The notes beneath the pieces were generated by a model, which saw only the letters and a program-made list of their open reading frames with translations, was not told the DNA's origin and made no database searches. This document shows positions 44,228 through 55,769 of a DNA stretch of 64,000 bases, one piece after another. Every line of letters starts with the position of its first letter. Positions within the stretch are counted from its first letter, which is position 1. Origin of the DNA: Candidatus Undinarchaeales archaeon (GTDB lineage Archaea > SpSt-1190 > JASMDC01); the NCBI GenBank assembly GCA_030753015.1, contig JASMDC010000014.1, positions 1 to 64,000 of the forward strand, in the 5' to 3' direction. The position numbers were made by a program, and so were the translations under genes.

Positions 44228-45556
44228 ATGACGGATGATGGCATGTCGGTTAGGTTCCATGGCTCCGGTCTCGAGGTGGGTCGCAGCGCCATCAGCGTCA
44301 GTGTCCCCGGTACGCGTTTGCTCCTCGACTGTGGGCTCAAGCTCGTTCCAGAAGGTGAGGAGCATCCTCTTGCGCTCGATGAGCTCACGGGAGAGCTGGA
44401 CGCCGTGCTCGTCTCCCATGCCCACCTCGACCATGTCGGCTATCTATCTGACTTTGTTGCGGCAGGCTATCACAATCCCATCTACATGACCGAACAGACT
44501 GCGCGGCTGACCCGACTGTTGCTCGAGGACTCGGCCAAGGTCAGGGAGATCCTGGGACACCACTCTCCAGATCCGGGCCCTGCGCTCGACCTGATCCAGC
44601 ACGTACGGCTGGAGGAGGAGGTCCGACTTCCCGGAGGCACTACCTTCTCCGCTCATCAGGCCGGTCATATCCCTGGTGCGGCTGGCCTCCTTGTACGGGG
44701 CAGGGGCAGGTCCATCTTCTACACAGGTGACATTTGTACACGTAAGCTCCACACCATCCCACCAGCAGAGCTACCACAGGGGCCCGTGGATTGCCTCATT
44801 CTCGAGTCCACGTACGGTGGGCTCAGTGATGTCCTCCCGACGATCGAAACACGTGACAGGGCGTTCATGGAGATGATCGGGACGGCTCTCGAACGTCGTG
44901 GTACGGTCCTTGTACCGTCCTTCGCGGTGGGACGGTCACAGGAGGTCATGCTCACCCTCCATGAACACAAGAAAGAGCTTCTGCACCACGGCAATGTCAG
45001 GGTCGTACCGTGCGGCGGCATGCTCTTCGGAGCCACCAAGGTCTACGACAAGGAGGCGAAAAGGCCTATCGGACTAGACACTAAGAATGGCCCGCTGTCA
45101 CCCATCCATATCCCCAAGAACCGCCGGATCGAGAAGGTCGCATCCGGCGAGTTCCCGACGATAGTCATCGCTACTGCCGGCATGCTTACCGGCGGCAGCT
45201 CACCCCGATACCTGCGACATCTTGCCGGTGATAGCCGGAACCTCATCCTCATCGTAGGATATCAGGCGGAAGGGACTCCCGGCAGAGAGCTGTTGGATGG
45301 TTCACGTCGGATAATGATAGACGGACAGCAAGTGGACATCAAGGCCGAGGTCGGATTCGTGAGCTTCTCGTCCCACACCTACCACGAGCAGTCCCTATCC
45401 CTGGTTCAGGATCTCTCTCCCGGGACCGTGCTCTGTAATCATGGAGAGCCATTGAAATGCGCTGAACTCGCCAGCGCGGTGGAGGAGCGGCTCGGGATCA
45501 AGGCCTCGGCGCCACCGAACGGTACGATGATCAGGGTGGCTGCACGTCCGACATAA
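44228..45556 (+). CDS. Beta-CASP metallo-beta-lactamase RNase (CPSF/RNase J-like)
   Basis: VSHAHLDHVGYLSDFV, FYTGDICTRKL, LESTYGGLSD, VPSFAVGRSQEVML, GYQAEGTPGRELL. Confidence 0.93.
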   Translation: MTDDGMSVRFHGSGLEVGRSAISVSVPGTRLLLDCGLKLVPEGEEHPLALDELTGELDAVLVSHAHLDHVGYLSDFVAAGYHNPIYMTEQTARLTRLLLEDSAKVREILGHHSPDPGPALDLIQHVRLEEEVRLPGGTTFSAHQAGHIPGAAGLLVRGRGRSIFYTGDICTRKLHTIPPAELPQGPVDCLILESTYGGLSDVLPTIETRDRAFMEMIGTALERRGTVLVPSFAVGRSQEVMLTLHEHKKELLHHGNVRVVPCGGMLFGATKVYDKEAKRPIGLDTKNGPLSPIHIPKNRRIEKVASGEFPTIVIATAGMLTGGSSPRYLRHLAGDSRNLILIVGYQAEGTPGRELLDGSRRIMIDGQQVDIKAEVGFVSFSSHTYHEQSLSLVQDLSPGTVLCNHGEPLKCAELASAVEERLGIKASAPPNGTMIRVAARPT

Positions 45557-45596: not shown

Positions 45597-46595
45597 CTAC
45601 AGCTCGGAGTACTCCTCTTGACGACGGCGGATGATGATGTAGCGCATATAGAGCAACACCACGACGCCCGTGATGAGGATTATCGAGATGAGCAGGACCT
45701 GGACGAGGTTCTCGAAGTCAAGCTTCGCGATGTTATACTCCACGTGAGCGTCCCAGTAGATGTATATCATCTCCTGGGCCGAGTCGTGCTGTCCGATGAC
45801 CGAATAGGAGCGACGCGCGCTCTCAAGGGCGCTCTTCCCCTGGGCGTAGCGGATCATCTTGAGATACGACACTGAACCCGCGTAGTCCTGGATAATCTGC
45901 TTCCCTTCAGCGCTCTTCTCCAGGGCATTGGTCGTATGGGCCGTACAATCCTCTACGGCCTCTTTGTGGCGGGTGGCATACTCCTCTGCTCTGGCCGATT
46001 TGCACGTGCGTGCCCATGAAGAGACCCGATCGAGCACTTCGGCCTGACGACACACGTTCGGCTCACCTTCCACGATGGCGTCGAACACGGAGAGCGCGAC
46101 GAAGCAGATGTCCTCGTAGGTATCGTCCACGTTCGTGAGGACCTCGGTGACCTCCTCATGCTCGAAAGAGGCCACGGTGAGGTTCTGCCGGTCCTCGGCG
46201 AGTGCCTCGATATTGTCGGTTATGGTACTGAAGCTCTCGATAGATTGGGCCTGCTCGTATGCCATGGATGATGCTGTGACCGCCCAGTACGTATCTCGTG
46301 TGTGATTGATGAAGTCATAGGTGGACGAGAGGAAGGTGGCCCCGAAGGTACCGTCCTTGCCGGAAGGGAGAGTCTGCGAATCGCAGAGGTAGGAGAGGTC
46401 CCGGGCGAAGTGGCACACCGATGAGGCCGTTGGGATGTCGGTTATGAACGTATCCCGGTGGCCACGCGAGATTATCTCCGAGTAGAGATCGATGAGCTGG
46501 CGACACGGTCGCGGCTCCGCCAATACCGGCATCAGCATAACGAGCAGTACTACTGTCGCAATGACCAGTAAGCGGGTCGTTCCATTCGACCTCAC
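45597..46595 (-). CDS. Secreted/membrane-anchored helical protein, signal peptide and C-terminal TM
   Basis: LLVIATVVLLVMLMPVLAEPRPC; C-terminal LVQVLLISIILITGVVVLLYMRYIIIRRRQEE; GTGA overlap with upstream CDS. Confidence 0.7.
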   Translation of the reverse strand: MRSNGTTRLLVIATVVLLVMLMPVLAEPRPCRQLIDLYSEIISRGHRDTFITDIPTASSVCHFARDLSYLCDSQTLPSGKDGTFGATFLSSTYDFINHTRDTYWAVTASSMAYEQAQSIESFSTITDNIEALAEDRQNLTVASFEHEEVTEVLTNVDDTYEDICFVALSVFDAIVEGEPNVCRQAEVLDRVSSWARTCKSARAEEYATRHKEAVEDCTAHTTNALEKSAEGKQIIQDYAGSVSYLKMIRYAQGKSALESARRSYSVIGQHDSAQEMIYIYWDAHVEYNIAKLDFENLVQVLLISIILITGVVVLLYMRYIIIRRRQEEYSEL

Positions 46596-49471
46596 AGCTC
46601 AAGCACCTTCTGCGTCTTGATCCGATAACGCACGTACATACCTGTGATGATGACGGTGACCATGAACGCGAATGCCACGACGACATTGACCAGTGTCGAC
46701 CAGAGCATGGCCAGGTCCTCGCGTTCGCTCTCGATGATGATGAGCTCGTTCCGCACACGTTCCGCGTCCTCCGTGAGATTCAGGTACTCACTTCCTAAGT
46801 CCCCTACAATCTCCCTGTACTCTTTGATGACCCTGTCGTACTTCTCCAGCGCGCGAGGGGGGAGGATACGGTCGCCCAATGCCTCCTGTCTGAGACCTTG
46901 GACATTCTCATACTTCGTCGAGACCTCGTCGAGCTTGTCGATGATATTACAGCGCAGGTTCACCCGGCTGAAGAACACGTTGGCCATGGCACCGTTGTGG
47001 CGCAGACGCTCAGAACGTGTCGTGGGTTTCAGGCAGTAGTACCTTCCGACATCCTCGAACGTTTTCAGGAGGGTGGCATTGGCCTTCTCGCAGATCGGCC
47101 GCGCCTCCTCGATATCGATGCACAACACTTCGAGGTTGCGCTCGGTCGAACGCAAGATGGAGAGAGCGCGGACCGACGTGAGATTATGGCTCCGCTTCAT
47201 TTCGTTGAGGGTTAGGACGTTCGTCGAGAACACCGAGAAGGAAGATACGAGGGAGGCGGCTTTCGCCGACATGACCGGATCTTTCTTCGACCAGTCATCG
47301 CAGTGGACCAGGAAATCGCGCAGAGCCTTCTTCTCCTCTGGGAACCGTTTATCGATGAGCTTGATGTCGTCCCGGGCCTTCCGACAGCTCGGTGGGATGA
47401 TCTCGAACTCCATGGGTCTCTCATCGGCGGCCCGGTCATCGTTCAGGGCATCGATGACAAGGCCGATCGTGTAGTCCCCTCTCGGATCGGAGAAGTCGAA
47501 CCCAAGGCCTATTGGCAGCGTAAGGCGGCCCCCCTTGTCGATCTCGAACACGGGCGAGGGTACCTCTACTGCTTTGGCATGACGCACACACGCCTCCCCG
47601 GCCCCAACGGGGCAGGACCGGGCAACGACACTGAACGTTATGTTCCGGAGAGGGGTGAACCCGCCAACCTCTGCCAGGGTGAGGCTCGTGTTACCAGTGA
47701 TCGACGGCGGGCGTTCCTTGTAGAGCGTGAGCTTGTCCGGCATCTCGATCATGAGCTGTGGGTGGGGGATCGTGAAGGAGAATGGGACCGTCCGGTCACC
47801 ACGGTCAGGTATGGTAATGCGCAGCCCGCAGGTGTACTTATCTGGCGGGAGGTAATGGGGTACGTTCACCTCGAGGTCGAAGTCACCGGTCTCTTTTGCC
47901 GATACACCGATAGTCCCCTTAGCGACAGTGATGAATGTATTATTGAAATCACAGTCCACGATCTCGCCAGTAATCCCCTCAGCACAACCTCCATCGACCT
48001 CGATGATGGTTATGTTCTGTGACCGGAAATCCCCGCAAGGGAGCTCACGCATGTCCACATTCTCTGCCTTGAGGAGATAGTCAAAGCGTGGTACTTTGAG
48101 GAACAGGACTGTCTCTTTCTTTGCTTGTTCGGTCTTCGTGCGTGGATATGTCGCTGCTAGCCGGCCCGTGTACTCCCCCGCATTGATGTACTTGGGGACC
48201 ATGATATTCAGGGTACCGCTTATCCGGTCACCAGGGGAGAGGTTGTCGGTCTTTTCAGCTTCGAACTCGAATGTGAAGTCCTTGATATTGCCCGTTATGT
48301 CCAACTTGAGGTCACGAACGCAGCCGGAGGTGGATGGTACGTACAGCTCGATGGGCTGCTTGAGCTCCCCCTTGCAGGGTGCGTCGAGCCCGATCGACCG
48401 GGGGCTCAGACGGAGCTCTGGAGGTCGGACTGACACAGCTGCGGGGACCTGTAGCATTTCATCCCCGAAGCGGAGGTTGATCTTGTAATCATCCTGCTTC
48501 TCATCCTCGTCCTCCAGGAGCGTGAGGTTGCCCAGAGTGAAGTCGACAGTTACCTTACCGCACTTGGGGAGCGTGTAGCTCTTCGAAGTGAAGATGAACG
48601 GATGGTCGTCCATGTTCACGTCAACTTCGAGCGGCAGATCGAACACGCAGCAGCGGTCCTCGATGGTTATGGTCCGTTCCTCGTTACCACAAGCGTTCTC
48701 GAATGAGAATGTATCAGGGCTTACTCGTACGTCCAGCGCTGGCACGAACCGAATGTTCAGGTCCACGACGATCTCAAGGGCGTTCGAACCCTCGATCCGA
48801 AGGGGTGTCGAATAGGTCGTCCATGGTGTGAGCACCTGTACTGTCTTCATGTTGAGCGTGATGTATTGGACCTGTCCCGATCTGACCTCACTGAAGCTCA
48901 ACTGGTTCCCGAAGCGATCACCAAGGCTGATCTCCAGAGGACAATCCCCGTCCTCGTTACACATGTATGATGAGTCCAATTGTGCCACAACGTTGTACGC
49001 GTCGAGCTTACCCTGATTGGTCAGGGAAAGACTGTCCGTAACCTTGACGGCCCCGGAAGAGCGACATGGGATCTCGATGTCCTTTGCGTACTCTATCGGA
49101 ACGGTGCGGAGGTTGGCACGCGCTTTCGCTACGTTGAAGGAGACGTATGTGGACTTCGGGCTACCGGTCAGGTTGTAAGCCTCGATCTTTAGCTTGTAGC
49201 TGCCTGTGCTCAGCTTCCCGATCATTATCTCGTGGCTTGTGGACCAGGAAGCATCGGTCCCGAGGACACGACCCCGGTCGTCCTTGACCTGTGCCTGGGA
49301 GTTCTGATTGGTCGAGATCGTGATCGTGAGAAGGTCTGCATCGGTCGCATAATCATAGGGTTCCTTCGATGCGATGACCTGAGCGGAACTCGTGAACCTG
49401 AAGTCATCCGCCACGGCGGACAAGCAGAGGAGGATCGACAGAGCGAGTAGTATGCGCTGGTAGCGAGCCAT
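46592..49471 (-). CDS. Large extracytoplasmic Ig-like beta-repeat protein with Cys-containing repeats, helical stalk and C-terminal TM
   Basis: Signal peptide MARYQRILLALSILLCLSAVA; repeats opening IPCRSSG, FENACGNEE, DAPCKGEL, ELPCGDF; C-terminal WSTLVNVVVAFAFMVTVIITGMYVRYRIKTQ. Confidence 0.75.
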   Translation of the reverse strand: MARYQRILLALSILLCLSAVADDFRFTSSAQVIASKEPYDYATDADLLTITISTNQNSQAQVKDDRGRVLGTDASWSTSHEIMIGKLSTGSYKLKIEAYNLTGSPKSTYVSFNVAKARANLRTVPIEYAKDIEIPCRSSGAVKVTDSLSLTNQGKLDAYNVVAQLDSSYMCNEDGDCPLEISLGDRFGNQLSFSEVRSGQVQYITLNMKTVQVLTPWTTYSTPLRIEGSNALEIVVDLNIRFVPALDVRVSPDTFSFENACGNEERTITIEDRCCVFDLPLEVDVNMDDHPFIFTSKSYTLPKCGKVTVDFTLGNLTLLEDEDEKQDDYKINLRFGDEMLQVPAAVSVRPPELRLSPRSIGLDAPCKGELKQPIELYVPSTSGCVRDLKLDITGNIKDFTFEFEAEKTDNLSPGDRISGTLNIMVPKYINAGEYTGRLAATYPRTKTEQAKKETVLFLKVPRFDYLLKAENVDMRELPCGDFRSQNITIIEVDGGCAEGITGEIVDCDFNNTFITVAKGTIGVSAKETGDFDLEVNVPHYLPPDKYTCGLRITIPDRGDRTVPFSFTIPHPQLMIEMPDKLTLYKERPPSITGNTSLTLAEVGGFTPLRNITFSVVARSCPVGAGEACVRHAKAVEVPSPVFEIDKGGRLTLPIGLGFDFSDPRGDYTIGLVIDALNDDRAADERPMEFEIIPPSCRKARDDIKLIDKRFPEEKKALRDFLVHCDDWSKKDPVMSAKAASLVSSFSVFSTNVLTLNEMKRSHNLTSVRALSILRSTERNLEVLCIDIEEARPICEKANATLLKTFEDVGRYYCLKPTTRSERLRHNGAMANVFFSRVNLRCNIIDKLDEVSTKYENVQGLRQEALGDRILPPRALEKYDRVIKEYREIVGDLGSEYLNLTEDAERVRNELIIIESEREDLAMLWSTLVNVVVAFAFMVTVIITGMYVRYRIKTQKVLEL

Positions 49472-50398
49472 TCAACCACGCCCCAGGAGCAGGAGCACCG
49501 CACCAGCGATGGCCAGTATCACCGACACCCCCAAGGCACCTAGGGCCACCGACCGGGGCTGGACGATGTTAGTGGAGCTTGTGAACGTTTTCCAGAACTC
49601 CACTTGTGCACGATACTTCCGATCGTAGGCGATTATGATAACGATCACCAGGAAGCATCCAACGAGCGCTGCCGGGGCTATCCGCGTCGTTACGAGCCCG
49701 GGAATGCGTGTGCTCTCATCCTCCAACAACATCTTAGACTTCTTGAGTTCCTCCTTGAAGCTCTCAAGAGGGGCCTCGGGCCCGAGCCCGGTAACTCCCA
49801 TTTCCTTGATGTTCTTCTGTGATGCTTCTCCGGCCTCGACGACACGCGACTCGTACAATGAGGGGTAGTCAAGAAGGAACTTGCGCTCGGGTTCAGTCAA
49901 GGCTGCGAGCTCTTCCGACGTCGGGACCGTGCCAATGCGCAGGTCCGCTGTATACCGGGAGAGCCTTAGGGCACGACTGGCGGTCATTACCGATTCATGT
50001 ACGCATGAGGGCCGGTCACATATCGTTGCCCAGGATATCTCCATCCAATCGGTGATTAGCGTGTCGACACGGGCTCCTGACTCGGACACCGCACGCGTCA
50101 CCTCTGAAATGAAGCCCGACATGACATGCTTGAAGGATTCCGGTGTGCAACCAGTAACTCCGCTGAGCGCCTGTTCTCCAGTCTCGCATATGGAGAGGTT
50201 AGCAAGGACCGGATCATCAACATATCCTTCGATGAACTTCGCGTCCATTTTTCCACGGACAGGTCTGATGAGATCGATACAATCCTTGGGAGCACCTTTA
50301 TCCGGTTCGCAAGCAGGTGGTTCGCCCTCGAACACGAACTGTGTACATCCACTGATGAGTACGAATGAGAGCAGGAGAACTGCGTACTTACTCTTCAT
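49472..50398 (-). CDS. Lipoprotein-like protein with two C-terminal TM segments
   Basis: MKSKYAVLLLSFVLISGCTQ lipobox-like; APAALVGCFLVIVIIIAYDRKYR and GALGVSVILAIAGAVLLLLGRG. Confidence 0.65.
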   Translation of the reverse strand: MKSKYAVLLLSFVLISGCTQFVFEGEPPACEPDKGAPKDCIDLIRPVRGKMDAKFIEGYVDDPVLANLSICETGEQALSGVTGCTPESFKHVMSGFISEVTRAVSESGARVDTLITDWMEISWATICDRPSCVHESVMTASRALRLSRYTADLRIGTVPTSEELAALTEPERKFLLDYPSLYESRVVEAGEASQKNIKEMGVTGLGPEAPLESFKEELKKSKMLLEDESTRIPGLVTTRIAPAALVGCFLVIVIIIAYDRKYRAQVEFWKTFTSSTNIVQPRSVALGALGVSVILAIAGAVLLLLGRG

Positions 50399-52325
50399 CG
50401 TCCTCACCCTCCCAATAGTCATCATCGTCGGCCTCAGTATCATCAACCTCGGCCTTCGCCTGTACGGCCTCGCTCGCCCCCTTGTTCGGCTCCTTGCTTC
50501 TCTTTGGGACGGGAGCTCCCCTTACAATGGCGAGTCCAAGAAGAGCGCCAAGCAGACCACCGAGCCCGAAACCGAAGAGGATACCGGGAACGCCACCGAC
50601 CGCGGCGTTCGTCTTGGCGTTCTTCGCCCGCTCGATCTCGACGACGGCACGCTGTCCAAGGAGGTCCTCTCGTTCATGGAGCGACTCCACGGAAACCGCG
50701 GCCATAGCAAGACTATCGAGCGCTACCGTCTCGATGCTCAATGAAGAGGAACTGCTCCCGCACCGGCCATCAGTGCAAGTGACGTTGATGTAAACTACAC
50801 AGGCGCCTCCGGTGGAGGAGTAAACTACGGTCCCGTTGACGTCCGCGCGGGCGGGTACGGTCCATCCCTCGTTGGCCGCTGTAAGGCCTTCTATCTTAAG
50901 GCCCGTAGCACAGCCTGCATTATCCGTGACCTTGAGGAGGCGTTCAAGGTCGGCCGGCACCGTCCCAGAGAGCTTGATCGAGAAGGGGTACCGTGATGCC
51001 ATCCCGGTGAAGGTGCGCTGTGACGTGGTACCAATATCCAGGCTCTGGACAAGTGGAGCTCGAACGAGGAACTCGGCGCATCCCTCGCCGGAGAGCCCCT
51101 TGATAACGGCACAAATAGCATGGAGACCTGCAGCGTCCGGGACGAGACCGAGGTCTTTGAGTGCATATGGTTTCCCAGATACGACCTGGAACACCTTGGA
51201 GGATGAGGCAAGGGTCTCACTGCTGGTAACGGTGATATTCAGAGGGAGGACGATGTCAGGAACGCCGGTGACCGTGACGGACGTCTCGACCGTGTCCCCG
51301 GGGAACACCTCGAGGCGATCGTGTGAGAAATATATGTGGAATGCTCCCGAGCCCAGCTGTGTGATGGGAGCACGGACCAGTGTCTCCACGGTCTCGTTGC
51401 GCTCGAACGAGTAGGTGACGTGTAGCATATCGGTGCCATTGAACAGCGGGCGGAGCGTGAGAGCGACGGTCGTTCCCGCGACAGGCTTCATCACAAGGAG
51501 CTCGGTCCGCTCCCCGTCCTTCCAGCTTCCGAGCACCTCGAAGGCCTCTGTGTTCACGGAGACGGTGAGGATGCGATCGGTGCGCTGTTCATTAGTGAAG
51601 ACCACTGTGGCGTTGAAGGTCTCGTTCCCCTGGAGGACCGTTGCAGTGGTCGTGAGTTCGGCCGTCGGCAGCACGGCGGGCACATCGACCTCAGGGCCTG
51701 TGACTTTCCCCTTGACCATGGCTTCGATCACGCACGTATCCAAGGTCACATCGCCCTCTCCAGTGGCCGTGAGCGTGATGGTGGTGGACCCTCCGCCAAT
51801 GGCGCGGAAGGAAGCGAGCTTCACGATGCCCTGAATCATGCTGGTGACGTTCTGAGCGTACTCGAGAGTAAGCACCGAGTCATCGAAATCCGCGGATACG
51901 TTCGCATCGGTAGCAAAGGCCCATGCGCTCACATCAAGGTTATCGCCGAGGTCCAGTGTGACAGATGCATCGGGACAGAGCAGACCCACAGGTTCTCGAG
52001 GCTTGATCTCGACCGTGGCCCACGTCCGAACGGTACCGGATGTGCGGTTGACGAGGGTGAGGTTGAGCTGTGGATTCTCTACAACAAGGCCATATGGCGG
52101 TGCCGTCACATTGACGATCACCTCGAAATTGGACCCTGCAGGTGGGAATGACACGGTCGCGTAGGATGCGGCGGACGCGGGATCCACATCTACGACAATA
52201 CCTTCGGTCGCTGTGACAGGCGGAAATGTACAGCTCTCGGACGAGCCCTCCCGAAGTGGGCCTAGCGAATCGCACGTCTTGAGTGCGAACGCTGGCGATA
52301 TCATTAGTGTAAAGAGGAGCACCAA
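50388..52325 (-). CDS. Extracytoplasmic beta-rich protein with C-terminal TM and acidic cytoplasmic tail
   Basis: Hydrophobic leader VLLFTLMISPAFALKTC; GGVPGILFGFGLGGLLGALLGLAIV; tail VDDTEADDDDYWEGEDDEE; TTG start uncertain. Confidence 0.65.
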   Translation of the reverse strand: MVLLFTLMISPAFALKTCDSLGPLREGSSESCTFPPVTATEGIVVDVDPASAASYATVSFPPAGSNFEVIVNVTAPPYGLVVENPQLNLTLVNRTSGTVRTWATVEIKPREPVGLLCPDASVTLDLGDNLDVSAWAFATDANVSADFDDSVLTLEYAQNVTSMIQGIVKLASFRAIGGGSTTITLTATGEGDVTLDTCVIEAMVKGKVTGPEVDVPAVLPTAELTTTATVLQGNETFNATVVFTNEQRTDRILTVSVNTEAFEVLGSWKDGERTELLVMKPVAGTTVALTLRPLFNGTDMLHVTYSFERNETVETLVRAPITQLGSGAFHIYFSHDRLEVFPGDTVETSVTVTGVPDIVLPLNITVTSSETLASSSKVFQVVSGKPYALKDLGLVPDAAGLHAICAVIKGLSGEGCAEFLVRAPLVQSLDIGTTSQRTFTGMASRYPFSIKLSGTVPADLERLLKVTDNAGCATGLKIEGLTAANEGWTVPARADVNGTVVYSSTGGACVVYINVTCTDGRCGSSSSSLSIETVALDSLAMAAVSVESLHEREDLLGQRAVVEIERAKNAKTNAAVGGVPGILFGFGLGGLLGALLGLAIVRGAPVPKRSKEPNKGASEAVQAKAEVDDTEADDDDYWEGEDDEE

Positions 52326-52361
52326 TCCAATTAGACGTATGGATCTAGGAGAAGCTATCGC

Positions 52362-53645
52362 CTACCCCCCTGAGAAGAACTCCATCTCAGTAACGTTATC
52401 AAAGAGCGCCTGTGCTTCATCCGGTGAAGTCTTGCTCGCTTCACGGAGGGTCTTGCGGGCCCAAGCGTTCCCCTTGACCTCGAGCTCCTTCAATCGCCCC
52501 ACGTCCTGCGGTCTGTAGGTGAAGGACGTTGTGACGGAGATCTCGGGATTGTCGGTCGGGACCACACCATGATGGAGCTCCTTACGAGTGAGGCGGCCCT
52601 CTTGGTCCTTGGTGATGGTCTCGAAGTATATCTTGTTCAGGTACTTCTTGTTCACCTTGAACACCATGGCGGCAGAGACAGGGAGCGTCTCTTCCAGCCC
52701 GGTCATGAGCTGTTTCGACCAGCACTTCATGGCCTCATCCGCGACCTGCTGAGTCTTGTCCTTTGATAAGAAGGGGAGCATCGTCTCCGAGAAGCTCAGG
52801 AACATCTGGCTACGTCCGATCGAGGCGATACCGGGCTTGCCCGGCATATAGGCAAGAGCTCGGATGTAGTCCGCAATGTCGAATGCGGGCAGGTTGAGCT
52901 TGCCCGTTGAGTCCTGGATGGACACGATGAGGTCGAGCACGAGGTTCTTAAGGGAGTCGACCACCATCTCGTTGAACACAGGTATCTTCTCGATGAAGGC
53001 GCCATGACCACGCTCGAGAACGACCTGGTTATCGACGACGATGAGCCCGTCGACGAGGTCGAGCATCTTGGTAATGTTCCACACGGCGTTCCAGGCACGC
53101 ATGTAGCCTTCGCTCTCCTCGGCAGGGAGCACTGCGACAGCGATGATGGGCGTGTTCGGGTAGATAAGCTTGAGGAACTCTGCGATCTTGGGTGCAGTAC
53201 CGGAACCCGTACCACCGCCAGCACCGAACGCCATGAGGATGACCGGAGGCCCGTTCTCACCCATCTTGAGGTGTAGGAAACGGCGGAACTCGGGCAGGAA
53301 CTCGTTCTGGTGTTCCTCGAGAAGGATGTGGCCCTTCCAAGGTGTAGCGCCCATCCCGCCCTTCACGCGACCTTCGAAGTCGGTCTGGTCGGTCTTTCCT
53401 AGGGCAGGAGCCACGCACGATCCGTCGATCCCGATACCCACGACGGGATCGAGCTTGAAGGCCTTGCGCAGGTTAGGGCAAGCGCGGTAGTAATCGGTGA
53501 ACCCTGATGTGATGCACACAGGAGTGATGAACACCGACGGGTCCTGTTTGAAGAAGTCAAGGAATGTCTTCTCACCCTTCAGGTTCATATACAGCTGGTC
53601 GAGTATCTTCATCCCGCACTGACCAAGTCCCACTGCACCGTACAT
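52362..53645 (-). CDS. Divergent tubulin/FtsZ-superfamily GTPase
   Basis: MYGAVGLGQCGMKILD N-terminal nucleotide loop and ILMAFGAGGGTGSGTAPKIAEFLK, matching the tubulin signature [SAG]GGTG[SA]G. Confidence 0.85.
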   Translation of the reverse strand: MYGAVGLGQCGMKILDQLYMNLKGEKTFLDFFKQDPSVFITPVCITSGFTDYYRACPNLRKAFKLDPVVGIGIDGSCVAPALGKTDQTDFEGRVKGGMGATPWKGHILLEEHQNEFLPEFRRFLHLKMGENGPPVILMAFGAGGGTGSGTAPKIAEFLKLIYPNTPIIAVAVLPAEESEGYMRAWNAVWNITKMLDLVDGLIVVDNQVVLERGHGAFIEKIPVFNEMVVDSLKNLVLDLIVSIQDSTGKLNLPAFDIADYIRALAYMPGKPGIASIGRSQMFLSFSETMLPFLSKDKTQQVADEAMKCWSKQLMTGLEETLPVSAAMVFKVNKKYLNKIYFETITKDQEGRLTRKELHHGVVPTDNPEISVTTSFTYRPQDVGRLKELEVKGNAWARKTLREASKTSPDEAQALFDNVTEMEFFSGG

Positions 53646-53670
53646 ATCTGATATATCGGGAGGGGATTAA

Positions 53671-53690
53671 TATTAAATAGGTATTCGTGC
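53671..53690 (-). promoter_or_regulatory. BRE/TATA-like element of the tubulin-like operon
   Basis: Minus strand GCACGAATACCTATTTAATA about 30 nt upstream of the start at 53645. Confidence 0.5.
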
Positions 53691-53721
53691 CATTCCGTGA
53701 CGGATCCGGGGGCCGTGACCT

Positions 53722-55584
53722 ATGACAGGAATGTACTATATCCGTCTTGCTACCATTGATGAGGTCTTTCAGGTCCACCCCTTCGATCCCAACGATCCGG
53801 GACAACCCCTGCTCGAGAACTTCACACGCATCGTCGGTAGCGTCTACCACCTCTCGCGTATCTACAGGCTCAAGTCCATCGGTCTATACGTCCATTATGT
53901 ATTGGAGCGGGCCAAGACCTGGGTCACCGAGGAGGAGGGCGACTACGTGCTCAACGTCGAGGTGCCCACTACCTGGACCTATCCCAGTACCGTGGAGCTG
54001 CTCTCCGAGATGGCTGCGAGCAAGTATCGCGATAACAGGATGAAGCTCACAAAGCGGGCAGAGATGGGTATCAATCCCTTCCTCAACCAGGCCGTTTCCA
54101 GCATACAACGTATGCAGGTCTCCGAGCTACAAGGGCTCGTTGATATCCCGGATAACGTAGCACGGGCCTATATCGCCAAGCTTCGGGGTGAGCAGCAGAC
54201 CCTCCTTCGTAATCTTGTTATCGGCAAGCTCCTCGCGGCGGGGAAGCTCTACGCTACAACCCAGCAGGCAGATGCCCAGCACACCGTCTGCGTCCGATGT
54301 GGGAACGTCCTTGACCTGCAGCGAAACCGCTGCCCGAAGTGTTTCTCCGCCCACCAGGGCGTGAAGTTCCAGGTCTATGTGACCGCATGGCAGGATGGCG
54401 AACCGGGAAAAGATTTCCTTGTGTTCCCGATCGAACCTCTGAAATCGATCCTCCCCAATCCCACATCCCCTCTTTTCGAGCAGACAATGCTCAAGGAGCT
54501 CGTGCTCCAGCATTTCAAGATTAGCGGGGACAGCGAGGGCTTCGTGCTCATGGACCTGGACCGCTCGCAGGAAGGGACATGGGAGCGCACTAATCTCCTA
54601 CTTCACGGTCGGAGGCTAGCGCTTGTGCCCTCTGATCGCGCCCCGGACATCGACGATTCCGAGATCTACGCCCAGCTCCGTTTCTCTGATGTGTGCGCCG
54701 ACTTCATCCAGCTACGGGTGACTCTCCCCGGGAACAGAGGGACCGTGGCCCACTCGGTAAGCCCGGAGACGCGCCTCGGGGACGTCGCCGATGCGGTGGT
54801 CAATAAAGCGGGGCTCAAGCTGGCGGACACCATCCTTGTTCGTGGGGGGCATCCCCTTGACCGGGAGGGGACCGTGGGCCAGGTAGGGCTCGTCAGCGGG
54901 GAAGAGGTCACCGTACAGGCCGTAGCACAGATGGCCGTGTTCATCCCAGAGATCGGGGGTACGAAACGATTCGGTGTCCCCGGGCGGATCACTGCTGCCC
55001 AGGCCATCGACCTCCTCAAGACACGATGCAATCTGACAGGTGATTACGTGCTCTCACAGGGTTCGGTATTCCTTAATCCAGATCACATTATCGATCCTGC
55101 TGCGCTCAGCAAGGGTGCGGGATTGCGTCTCAACCAACTCATCACCGTTGGTATCCAGCTCGCGGGGAACGTTCATACCATCAGTGTCTCGGCCGAGTCG
55201 ACGGTCGGCGACCTGCTCAGCAATCTCAAGGTGCGCGTCGGTGTGAACGGAGTGCTCGTTGCCCAGCTCAAGGGTGCGGTCGTCCCTAGCACCACACTAA
55301 TTGGTGAGCTCGATCTCAAGAAGGGACAGAACCTCGCGGCCGTGGAACGTCAGGTCAAGATGATCAACCTAACCATCTCACCGATCGAGGGAGGGAAGGA
55401 CACCAAGGTATCCATAGCTGAGGACCAGACAGTCTCCTCGCTCAAAGTCCAGCTCCGTACGATGCTCGGTCTCCCCGATAGCTCACGCATGGACCTCGTT
55501 TTCGGGGAGAAGGTGCTCAAGGACGATGCATCCCTGATGGAGTCCGGTGTCGGGGAAGGCGCGAACCTCTTCCTCATGGGATAA
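53722..55584 (+). CDS. Zinc-ribbon protein with about four C-terminal ubiquitin-like beta-grasp domains
   Basis: CVRCGNVLDLQRNRCPKC; C-terminal MINLTISPIEGGKDTKVSIAEDQTVSSLKVQLRTMLGLPDSSRMDLVFGEKVLKDDASLMESGVGEGANLFLMG and three preceding about 70-aa beta-grasp-like segments. Confidence 0.75.
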   Translation: MTGMYYIRLATIDEVFQVHPFDPNDPGQPLLENFTRIVGSVYHLSRIYRLKSIGLYVHYVLERAKTWVTEEEGDYVLNVEVPTTWTYPSTVELLSEMAASKYRDNRMKLTKRAEMGINPFLNQAVSSIQRMQVSELQGLVDIPDNVARAYIAKLRGEQQTLLRNLVIGKLLAAGKLYATTQQADAQHTVCVRCGNVLDLQRNRCPKCFSAHQGVKFQVYVTAWQDGEPGKDFLVFPIEPLKSILPNPTSPLFEQTMLKELVLQHFKISGDSEGFVLMDLDRSQEGTWERTNLLLHGRRLALVPSDRAPDIDDSEIYAQLRFSDVCADFIQLRVTLPGNRGTVAHSVSPETRLGDVADAVVNKAGLKLADTILVRGGHPLDREGTVGQVGLVSGEEVTVQAVAQMAVFIPEIGGTKRFGVPGRITAAQAIDLLKTRCNLTGDYVLSQGSVFLNPDHIIDPAALSKGAGLRLNQLITVGIQLAGNVHTISVSAESTVGDLLSNLKVRVGVNGVLVAQLKGAVVPSTTLIGELDLKKGQNLAAVERQVKMINLTISPIEGGKDTKVSIAEDQTVSSLKVQLRTMLGLPDSSRMDLVFGEKVLKDDASLMESGVGEGANLFLMG

Positions 55585-55628
55585 ACGAAGATATTTATGC
55601 GATGGGCGGCATTAGTTTAGTTGGGGCA

Positions 55629-55769
55629 ATGGGAGAACATGAAAAAACCTACGGGTCGTACGTCATGAAGCTCCTTTTCCGGAGGAAGTACGAGGACTAC
55701 GAGGTCTTCCTCAAACGGAACAAGAAGGAGAAGAAGTTCTGGACCGAGAAGGACATCTTCGAAGAGTGA
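55629..55769 (+). CDS. 46-aa basic hypothetical protein; absent from the supplied ORF track
   Basis: MGEHEKTYGSYVMKLLFRRKYEDYEVFLKRNKKEKKFWTEKDIFEE, 45 bp after the beta-grasp protein. Confidence 0.4.
   Translation: MGEHEKTYGSYVMKLLFRRKYEDYEVFLKRNKKEKKFWTEKDIFEE

Follow-up and report, generated by a model that had tools for sequence, protein, structure and literature searches.

A tubulin-superfamily GTPase encoded with bitopic envelope proteins in a candidate conserved archaeal module

The DNA analyzed here, termed the window, is a stretch of 64,000 nucleotides (positions 1 to 64,000 of contig JASMDC010000014.1) from the genome of a Candidatus Undinarchaeales archaeon (assembly GCA_030753015.1, the source genome). 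A run of five genes on its minus strand starts with a tubulin-superfamily GTPase (52362-53645) and ends with a gene for a membrane protein termed TM332 (45597-46595), and we consider it rather probable that this five-gene operon represents a minimal form of a module conserved among archaea, in which a cytoplasmic GTPase of the tubulin superfamily is coupled to bitopic envelope proteins. Two of the encoded proteins carry the evidence, the GTPase, which falls in a clade of its own termed c0, and the 959-aa protein Cys959, which is related to a family termed c3. In several deep lineages of archaea the c0 GTPase is frequently encoded together with a c3-type protein.

Results

The window GTPase (427 aa) matches PF00091 with an E value of 1.4e-20 and 74.8 bits against a cut-off of 33. 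The T1 loop GLGQCG at residue 6, the T4 loop GAGGGTGSG at residue 141 and a VDNQ motif are present, and an acidic pair (D256/D259) occupies the T7 position; all of c0 shares the GTP-binding loops and this acidic pair. The AlphaFold2 (AF2) model calculated from a 14-sequence alignment (pLDDT 78, pTM 0.84) predicts a complete two-domain tubulin fold with the core helix H7 at residues 217-237 and a C-terminal domain containing a β-sheet. The nearest structure in the PDB to this model is CetZ1 (PDB code 4b46, TMt 0.80), followed by other CetZ proteins and then by FtsZ, TubZ and the tubulins (probability 1.00), and a profile search with the GTPase likewise gives CetZ1 (E 1e-27).

A maximum-likelihood tree places the window GTPase and its relatives in the separate clade c0 with a support of 99/100, the long branch of the window protein (1.49) leaving its exact position within c0 unsure. 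A c0 hidden Markov model (HMM) built without the window recognizes the GTPase with an E value of 8.5e-45, compared with 1e-10 to 1e-17 for the FtsZ and CetZ proteins of the source genome, which has six PF00091 proteins composed of three strong FtsZ, two CetZ and the window GTPase. The Pfam scan shows no CetZ_C, FtsZ_C or Tubulin_C domain in the GTPase. CetZ_C (PF21011) is matched by the two CetZ proteins of the source genome (loci L033 and L034) and is unmatched in every c0 protein tested, namely those of the window, of loci L049, L053, L086 and L089, and of Halobacterium. Assignment as CetZ by the Pfam criterion is rejected owing to this missing domain, assignment as FtsZ because the protein scores far below the TIGR00065 cut-off (41.4 compared with 295 bits), and assignment as FtsZl1 because it is under the cut-off of PF13809 (Tubulin_2/FtsZl1; 14.7 compared with 27 bits), as are the other c0 members. 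The GTPase is a member of the tubulin superfamily in a clade separate from FtsZ and CetZ.

On contig C75 of the source genome (L034, 2943-8390) CetZ adjoins a degenerate 342-aa tubulin-like paralogue without the GGGTGSG loop, and a 659-aa possibly secreted protein is encoded further upstream; this is perhaps another paired-tubulin locus. On contig C117 (L033, 9772-12198) the other CetZ is immediately followed by a T2SSF-like membrane protein (E 9e-5, just below the cut-off). A further arrangement, with three near-tandem tubulin-like proteins and a secreted transmembrane (TM) protein between them, is found in genome G091 (contig C105, L036 7434-11628), which also has the c0 module.

The second protein that links the window to other archaea is Cys959 (46592-49471, minus strand), composed of a signal peptide, tandem immunoglobulin-like (Ig-like) domains, a helical bundle, a TM segment at residues 927-945 and a 14-aa cytoplasmic tail. 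With the window left out of the c3 HMM, Cys959 is matched at E 4e-10, improving to 7.7e-14 once members from the archaeal family f75 are added, and hhalign aligns it with c3 (96.5%, E 7.6e-10) over the Ig-like domains at residues 383-617, whereas control proteins of the source genome, secreted ones among them, score near zero against c3. The protein contains 22 cysteines, and the β-domains carry paired cysteines. The C-terminal half has no sequence match to c3; a low confidence AF2 model places β-domains, then a helical bundle, then a TM helix in the order seen in c3, and a fold search with this model gives generic Ig-like matches only. As judged from its sequence, Cys959 is a c3-type bitopic Ig-like/helical protein.

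The co-occurrence of the two families was assessed in 397 archaeal genomes with thresholds of E<1e-35 for c0 and E<1e-30 for c3. c0 is present in 19 genomes and c3 in 18 of the same 19, and a strong c3 match is found in none of the 378 others (Fisher P 3e-30, uncorrected for kinship); the sole c0 genome without c3 is 62% complete. The c3 model of this search included the window protein, so that the source genome counts only via the separate window-free HMM test given above, and f75, which is outside the c3 model, is recovered at E ~1e-112. The independent lineages with both proteins are the Hydrothermarchaeota-like families, f25 (JACRDV), f75, f1 (the source genome) and the haloarchaea. In a scan of named genomes c0 occurs mostly in Hydrothermarchaeota metagenome-assembled genomes (MAGs; Pyrohabitans, Hydrothermarchaeum and others) and also in the groundwater MAGs JACRDV/JACRDW and in Halovenus salina. 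The source genome itself is 3.85 Mb in size, compared with 0.6-1.1 Mb for nine classmates without strong c0 or c3 matches, which may reflect an unusual expansion or acquisition of the module by horizontal transfer. Its genes for a thermosome and a TFIIB-like protein (L039) are in keeping with an archaeon.

The better-covered Hydrothermarchaeota loci have a constant neighborhood with c0, c1 and c2 on one strand, c4 and c3 divergent to these, and c5 present in most. c1 is a protein of ~455 aa with one or two N-terminal TM segments and a long helical cytoplasmic domain, c2 is a second tubulin-like GTPase, and c4 (~320 aa) has a signal, a helical region and a TM segment. c3 is ~680 aa in this lineage, with a signal, β-domains, a helical region and a TM segment, and c4 is a paralogue of its helical/TM half (hhalign 98%, E 1.5e-13). 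c5 has a signal followed by a PQQ-like propeller, a TM segment and a cytoplasmic domain. The order in JACRDV (c3, a 322-aa bitopic protein, a 212-aa protein and c0) is the nearest to the layout of the five-gene run, which is probably a minimal version of the module with a single GTPase. In f75 a first set (c0, c1, c2, c3 and the cytoplasmic part of c5) lies on separate contigs, and this scatter argues against an association that arises from linkage alone. In each of two genomes a second set of f75 paralogues, c0-like, c4-like, GTPase B, c5-like and c3-like, shares a single contig. Near this second module a 985-988-aa protein (L089 149-3115 and L123 2279-5236) with a weak c0-like match (E ~1e-3) is possibly a further divergent tubulin-like protein.

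The largest form of the module is haloarchaeal. A plasmid search located relatives of the Halovenus c0 on the megaplasmid PHS2 of Halobacterium salinarum R1 and on those of three Halobaculum and one Natrinema. An 11-gene operon is present in 3/3 loci examined and has the same gene order in PHS2 (NC_010369.1; L144, 5118-22345), Halobaculum roseum (L145) and Natrinema (L146), with members matching c2-like, c0, c1, c2, c5, c4 and c3 at E values from 1e-27 to 1e-121. In H. salinarum R1 it spans OE_RS12075-OE_RS12025, with c0 encoded by OE_RS12060 and c2 by OE_RS12040. Of its three tubulin-like GTPases in PHS2, two are annotated "cell division protein FtsZ" and one is hypothetical; the other haloarchaeal members are mostly hypothetical proteins.

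Between the GTPase and TM332 the window run encodes, in order, Beta645 (50388-52325), Lipo (49472-50398) and Cys959, all on the minus strand. The gaps are 36 bp from the GTPase to Beta645, -11 bp from Beta645 to Lipo (taking the ATG at 50398, not the TTG at 50446, as the Lipo start), 0 bp from Lipo to Cys959 and -4 bp from Cys959 to TM332. Beta645 has a β-rich ectodomain, a single TM segment at residues 574-592 and an acidic 53-aa cytoplasmic tail; Lipo has a lipoprotein-like signal (LISGC), an ectodomain of ~210 aa and a C-terminal two-TM hairpin; TM332 has a signal peptide, a helical ectodomain, a TM segment at residues 289-307 and a short basic tail with a terminal YSEL. The TM scan shows C-terminal TM segments in all four proteins downstream of the GTPase and an N-terminal signal-like segment in TM332, Cys959 and Lipo, that of Beta645 falling under the TM cut-off. 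These four proteins have no recognizable family in the Pfam, TIGR, PHROG and PADLOC scans. A defense system was rejected as there is no PADLOC match, and a phage origin was rejected as the GTPase has one weak, functionless PHROG match, two other proteins are marginal and there are no relatives among viral contigs. An earlier note made from the letters of the window had described this run, and its open reading frames (ORFs), tubulin signature, gaps and order of surface and membrane genes all agree with the present analysis.

The three remaining proteins of the run are placed by their topology and order. TM332 is not significantly matched by the c4 profile (E 0.69), and hhalign finds no significant homology of TM332 to c4 or to the Cys959 C terminus. 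Its topology and position agree with c4, and next to the c3-type gene it occupies the place that c4 or the 322-aa protein has in other lineages, so that TM332 is c4-like by position and topology only. Lipo and Beta645 show no significant homology to haloarchaeal or f75 proteins by hhalign. The topology of Lipo (signal, ectodomain and terminal two-TM hairpin) is unique among 129 source-genome ORFs scanned and is also found in gene g6 of the haloarchaeal operon, two places after c0, and in proteins of 147/160 aa in the second f75 module. For Beta645 the counterpart by topology and order only is a signal peptide-ectodomain-TM-charged tail protein of the second f75 module (L090 11734-13023). Because of the conservation across archaea, the clustering of the window genes is not by chance.

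The cytoplasmic tails of c3 and c4 are short and are more alike within a lineage than across lineages. The tail patterns are aromatic-x-R/K-D...G-D/N-E/V in Hydrothermarchaeota, ...EEIFE in JACRDV, Y-x-K/R-D...K-(I/F)-F in f75 and RY.I...EL in the window, and pairing the c3 and c4 tails of the same lineage is the best of 24 pairings (P 0.04). This likeness hints that c3 and c4 may share a cytoplasmic partner, for which the GTPase would be the obvious candidate.

A divergent intergenic region of 76 bp (53646-53721) separates the GTPase from a 620-aa protein on the plus strand (53722-55584), termed Ubl for its ubiquitin-like domains. Direct reading of this region shows TATA-like motifs (TTTAATA/TTAAATA) ~30 nucleotides upstream of the GTPase ATG and ~45 nucleotides upstream of the Ubl ATG; these are putative promoters, and co-regulation of Ubl with the GTPase operon from this region is possible. 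Ubl is above the Pfam cut-off for ubiquitin (PF11976 E 1.2e-8, PF00240 E 2.6e-8) and matches OTU1_UBXL (E 6.8e-8). A zinc-ribbon-like CxxC...CxxC at ~190-207 is under the Pfam cut-off, and inspection by eye makes four ubiquitin-like segments in tandem plausible, with a mutual similarity undetectable by hhalign. The zinc-ribbon/multi-ubiquitin-like description in the earlier note is thus borne out for the ubiquitin domain, with the ribbon below cut-off and the repeats seen by eye only, and the 46-aa ORF that it placed beyond Ubl is present, reading 55 aa from the first ATG and 46 aa from the second. Its proposal that Ubl is a scaffold or adaptor is not supported, as 100 relatives contain no homologue and the other copies of the module lack a counterpart gene, the neighbors of c0 genes matching Ubl only as a generic zinc ribbon. 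Ubl was rejected on these grounds as an adaptor or core part and lies outside the conserved module; as an archaeal orphan it combines a zinc ribbon with up to four tandem ubiquitin-like domains. On the other side of the run (44228-45556) is a 442-aa β-CASP nuclease that scores 271 bits with aCPSF1 and 213 bits with type VII Cas14, both far below the curated cut-offs, the aCPSF1 model being matched in its C-terminal part only.

Discussion

The co-conservation of c0 with c3 argues for a module that is probably a real, undescribed machine tying an internal filament to the cell surface. The idea that the GTPase is coupled to the secreted and membrane proteins beside it was put forward in the earlier note, and it is upheld in part: the GTPase and the 959-aa protein are co-conserved in other genomes, TM332, Lipo and Beta645 are retained by topology and order only, and the ubiquitin-fold protein drops out. 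Several observations weigh against reading the operon as a copy of the module. Sequence-level module homologues exist for two of the five window genes and for none of TM332, Lipo and Beta645. The Ig-like domain is a common surface fold, so the c3 signal could be partly generic. c1, c2 and c5, which are present in Hydrothermarchaeota, f75 and haloarchaea, are missing from the source genome and from genome G031. The tail comparison with its four lineages bottoms out at 1/24, and the window tail pair alone is not significant (P 0.13).

We infer polymerization, docking and function as follows. The c0 GTPase, with or without a second GTPase, would polymerize under the membrane in a GTP-dependent manner, and the polymer would dock to c3/c4-type proteins by their short cytoplasmic tails (Cys959 and TM332 in the window), possibly also via the tail of Beta645 and the hairpin loop of Lipo. 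The docked polymer would position or tension a surface structure built of c3/c4-type Ig-like and helical ectodomains. The outcome would be local organization of the envelope or of cell shape and not the main division ring, because the source genome already has three FtsZ. A wider picture, held tentatively and at somewhat less than even weight, is of an ancient archaeal transenvelope cytoskeleton in which a membrane-bound polymer of one or two tubulin-family GTPases is physically tied by bitopic linkers to an external Ig-like/propeller surface assembly.

Other roles can be envisaged for the same genes. The GTPase might assemble at the membrane and bend or pinch it to form vesicles, the ectodomain proteins being cargo receptors or scaffolds. 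This recalls the membrane remodeling proposed for FtsZl1, a divergent tubulin-family protein that is likewise encoded with membrane proteins and coexists with FtsZ (PMC2875224), and CetZ proteins and FtsZ2 are reported to be enriched in haloarchaeal vesicles (PMC10927574). We regard it as unlikely, since the vWA, kinase and P-loop GTPase partners of FtsZl1 are unmatched among the neighboring proteins scanned and bitopic partners with large ectodomains suit linkage better than budding. An appendage, pilus or secretion platform, with the GTPase positioning or powering an extracellular fiber of Ig-like proteins, is quite improbable: the module proteins examined include no recognizable secretion ATPase, prepilin peptidase or prepilin, and c3 retains a TM segment and tail and hence stays in the membrane, although in their fold the tandem Ig-like domains are similar to adhesins and further extended surface proteins, some archaea have CetZ genes next to type IV pili loci (PMC9856176) and one source-genome CetZ directly precedes the T2SSF-like gene at L033. 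Finally, the annotation of haloarchaeal members as cell division protein FtsZ would fit a GTPase that is an additional division protein, or a non-polymerizing switch, with surface genes that are merely co-regulated. The sequence and model contain the C-terminal domain and the T7 acidic pair that longitudinal contacts require, and three FtsZ coexist in the source genome, making such a role highly improbable.

If true, a filament docked to envelope proteins would be a cytoskeleton-to-surface coupling of a kind undescribed for any tubulin-family system, with the run in the window as its stripped-down, single-GTPase form. The targets of archaeal non-division tubulin-family proteins are a long-standing question, which becomes a direct experiment because c0 and c3 co-occur in 18/19 genomes and the larger form is in a culturable, genetically tractable haloarchaeon. 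The module supplies candidates both for the membrane partners of a tubulin-family filament (c1, c3, c4 and c5) and for the peptides to which it would dock.

Among known systems, the FtsZ membrane anchors of the SepF, EzrA and ZipA type are comparable with c1, which is anchor-like in topology but has no sequence match to them and is absent from the source genome. CetZ (Haloferax volcanii CetZ1, PDB code 4b46; Methanosaeta CetZ, PDB code 3zid) is similar to c0 in being an archaeal two-domain tubulin fold that is not the main division FtsZ. It differs in that c0 lacks CetZ_C and forms a separate clade, and in that the conserved neighbors of c0 are bitopic surface proteins, whereas the neighborhoods of CetZ contain type IV pili and biosynthesis genes (PMC9856176).

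No description of the module was found in the literature searched, many subscription papers being out of reach, so that the "undescribed" of the earlier note holds to this extent, with one qualification for the haloarchaeal GTPases. A 2023 survey describes Halo.Tub paralogues, quasi-tandem among genes of unknown function, as a phylogenetic group that is unstable and whose gene context is unrelated (PMC9871819). They are haloarchaeal and several tubulin-like copies are quasi-tandem, as are the three GTPases of the Halobacterium/Halobaculum/Natrinema operon, and by this description Halo.Tub may correspond to haloarchaeal c0/c2. The c3/c4/c5/c1 module and a link to Hydrothermarchaeota or the source genome are absent from the part of that description available (PMC9871819).

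The nearest published idea is FtsZl1, a divergent tubulin-family protein that accompanies membrane proteins beside a normal FtsZ, its partners being vWA, kinase, P-loop GTPase and OmpA-like proteins (PMC2875224). In FtsZl1 proteins the GTPase domain is typically followed by a coiled coil and then a C-terminal helical domain, the type member has 1051 aa and a T6-H7 region is not recognizable (PMC2875224), whereas c0 is ~400 aa, has a predicted complete fold and scores below the PF13809 cut-off.

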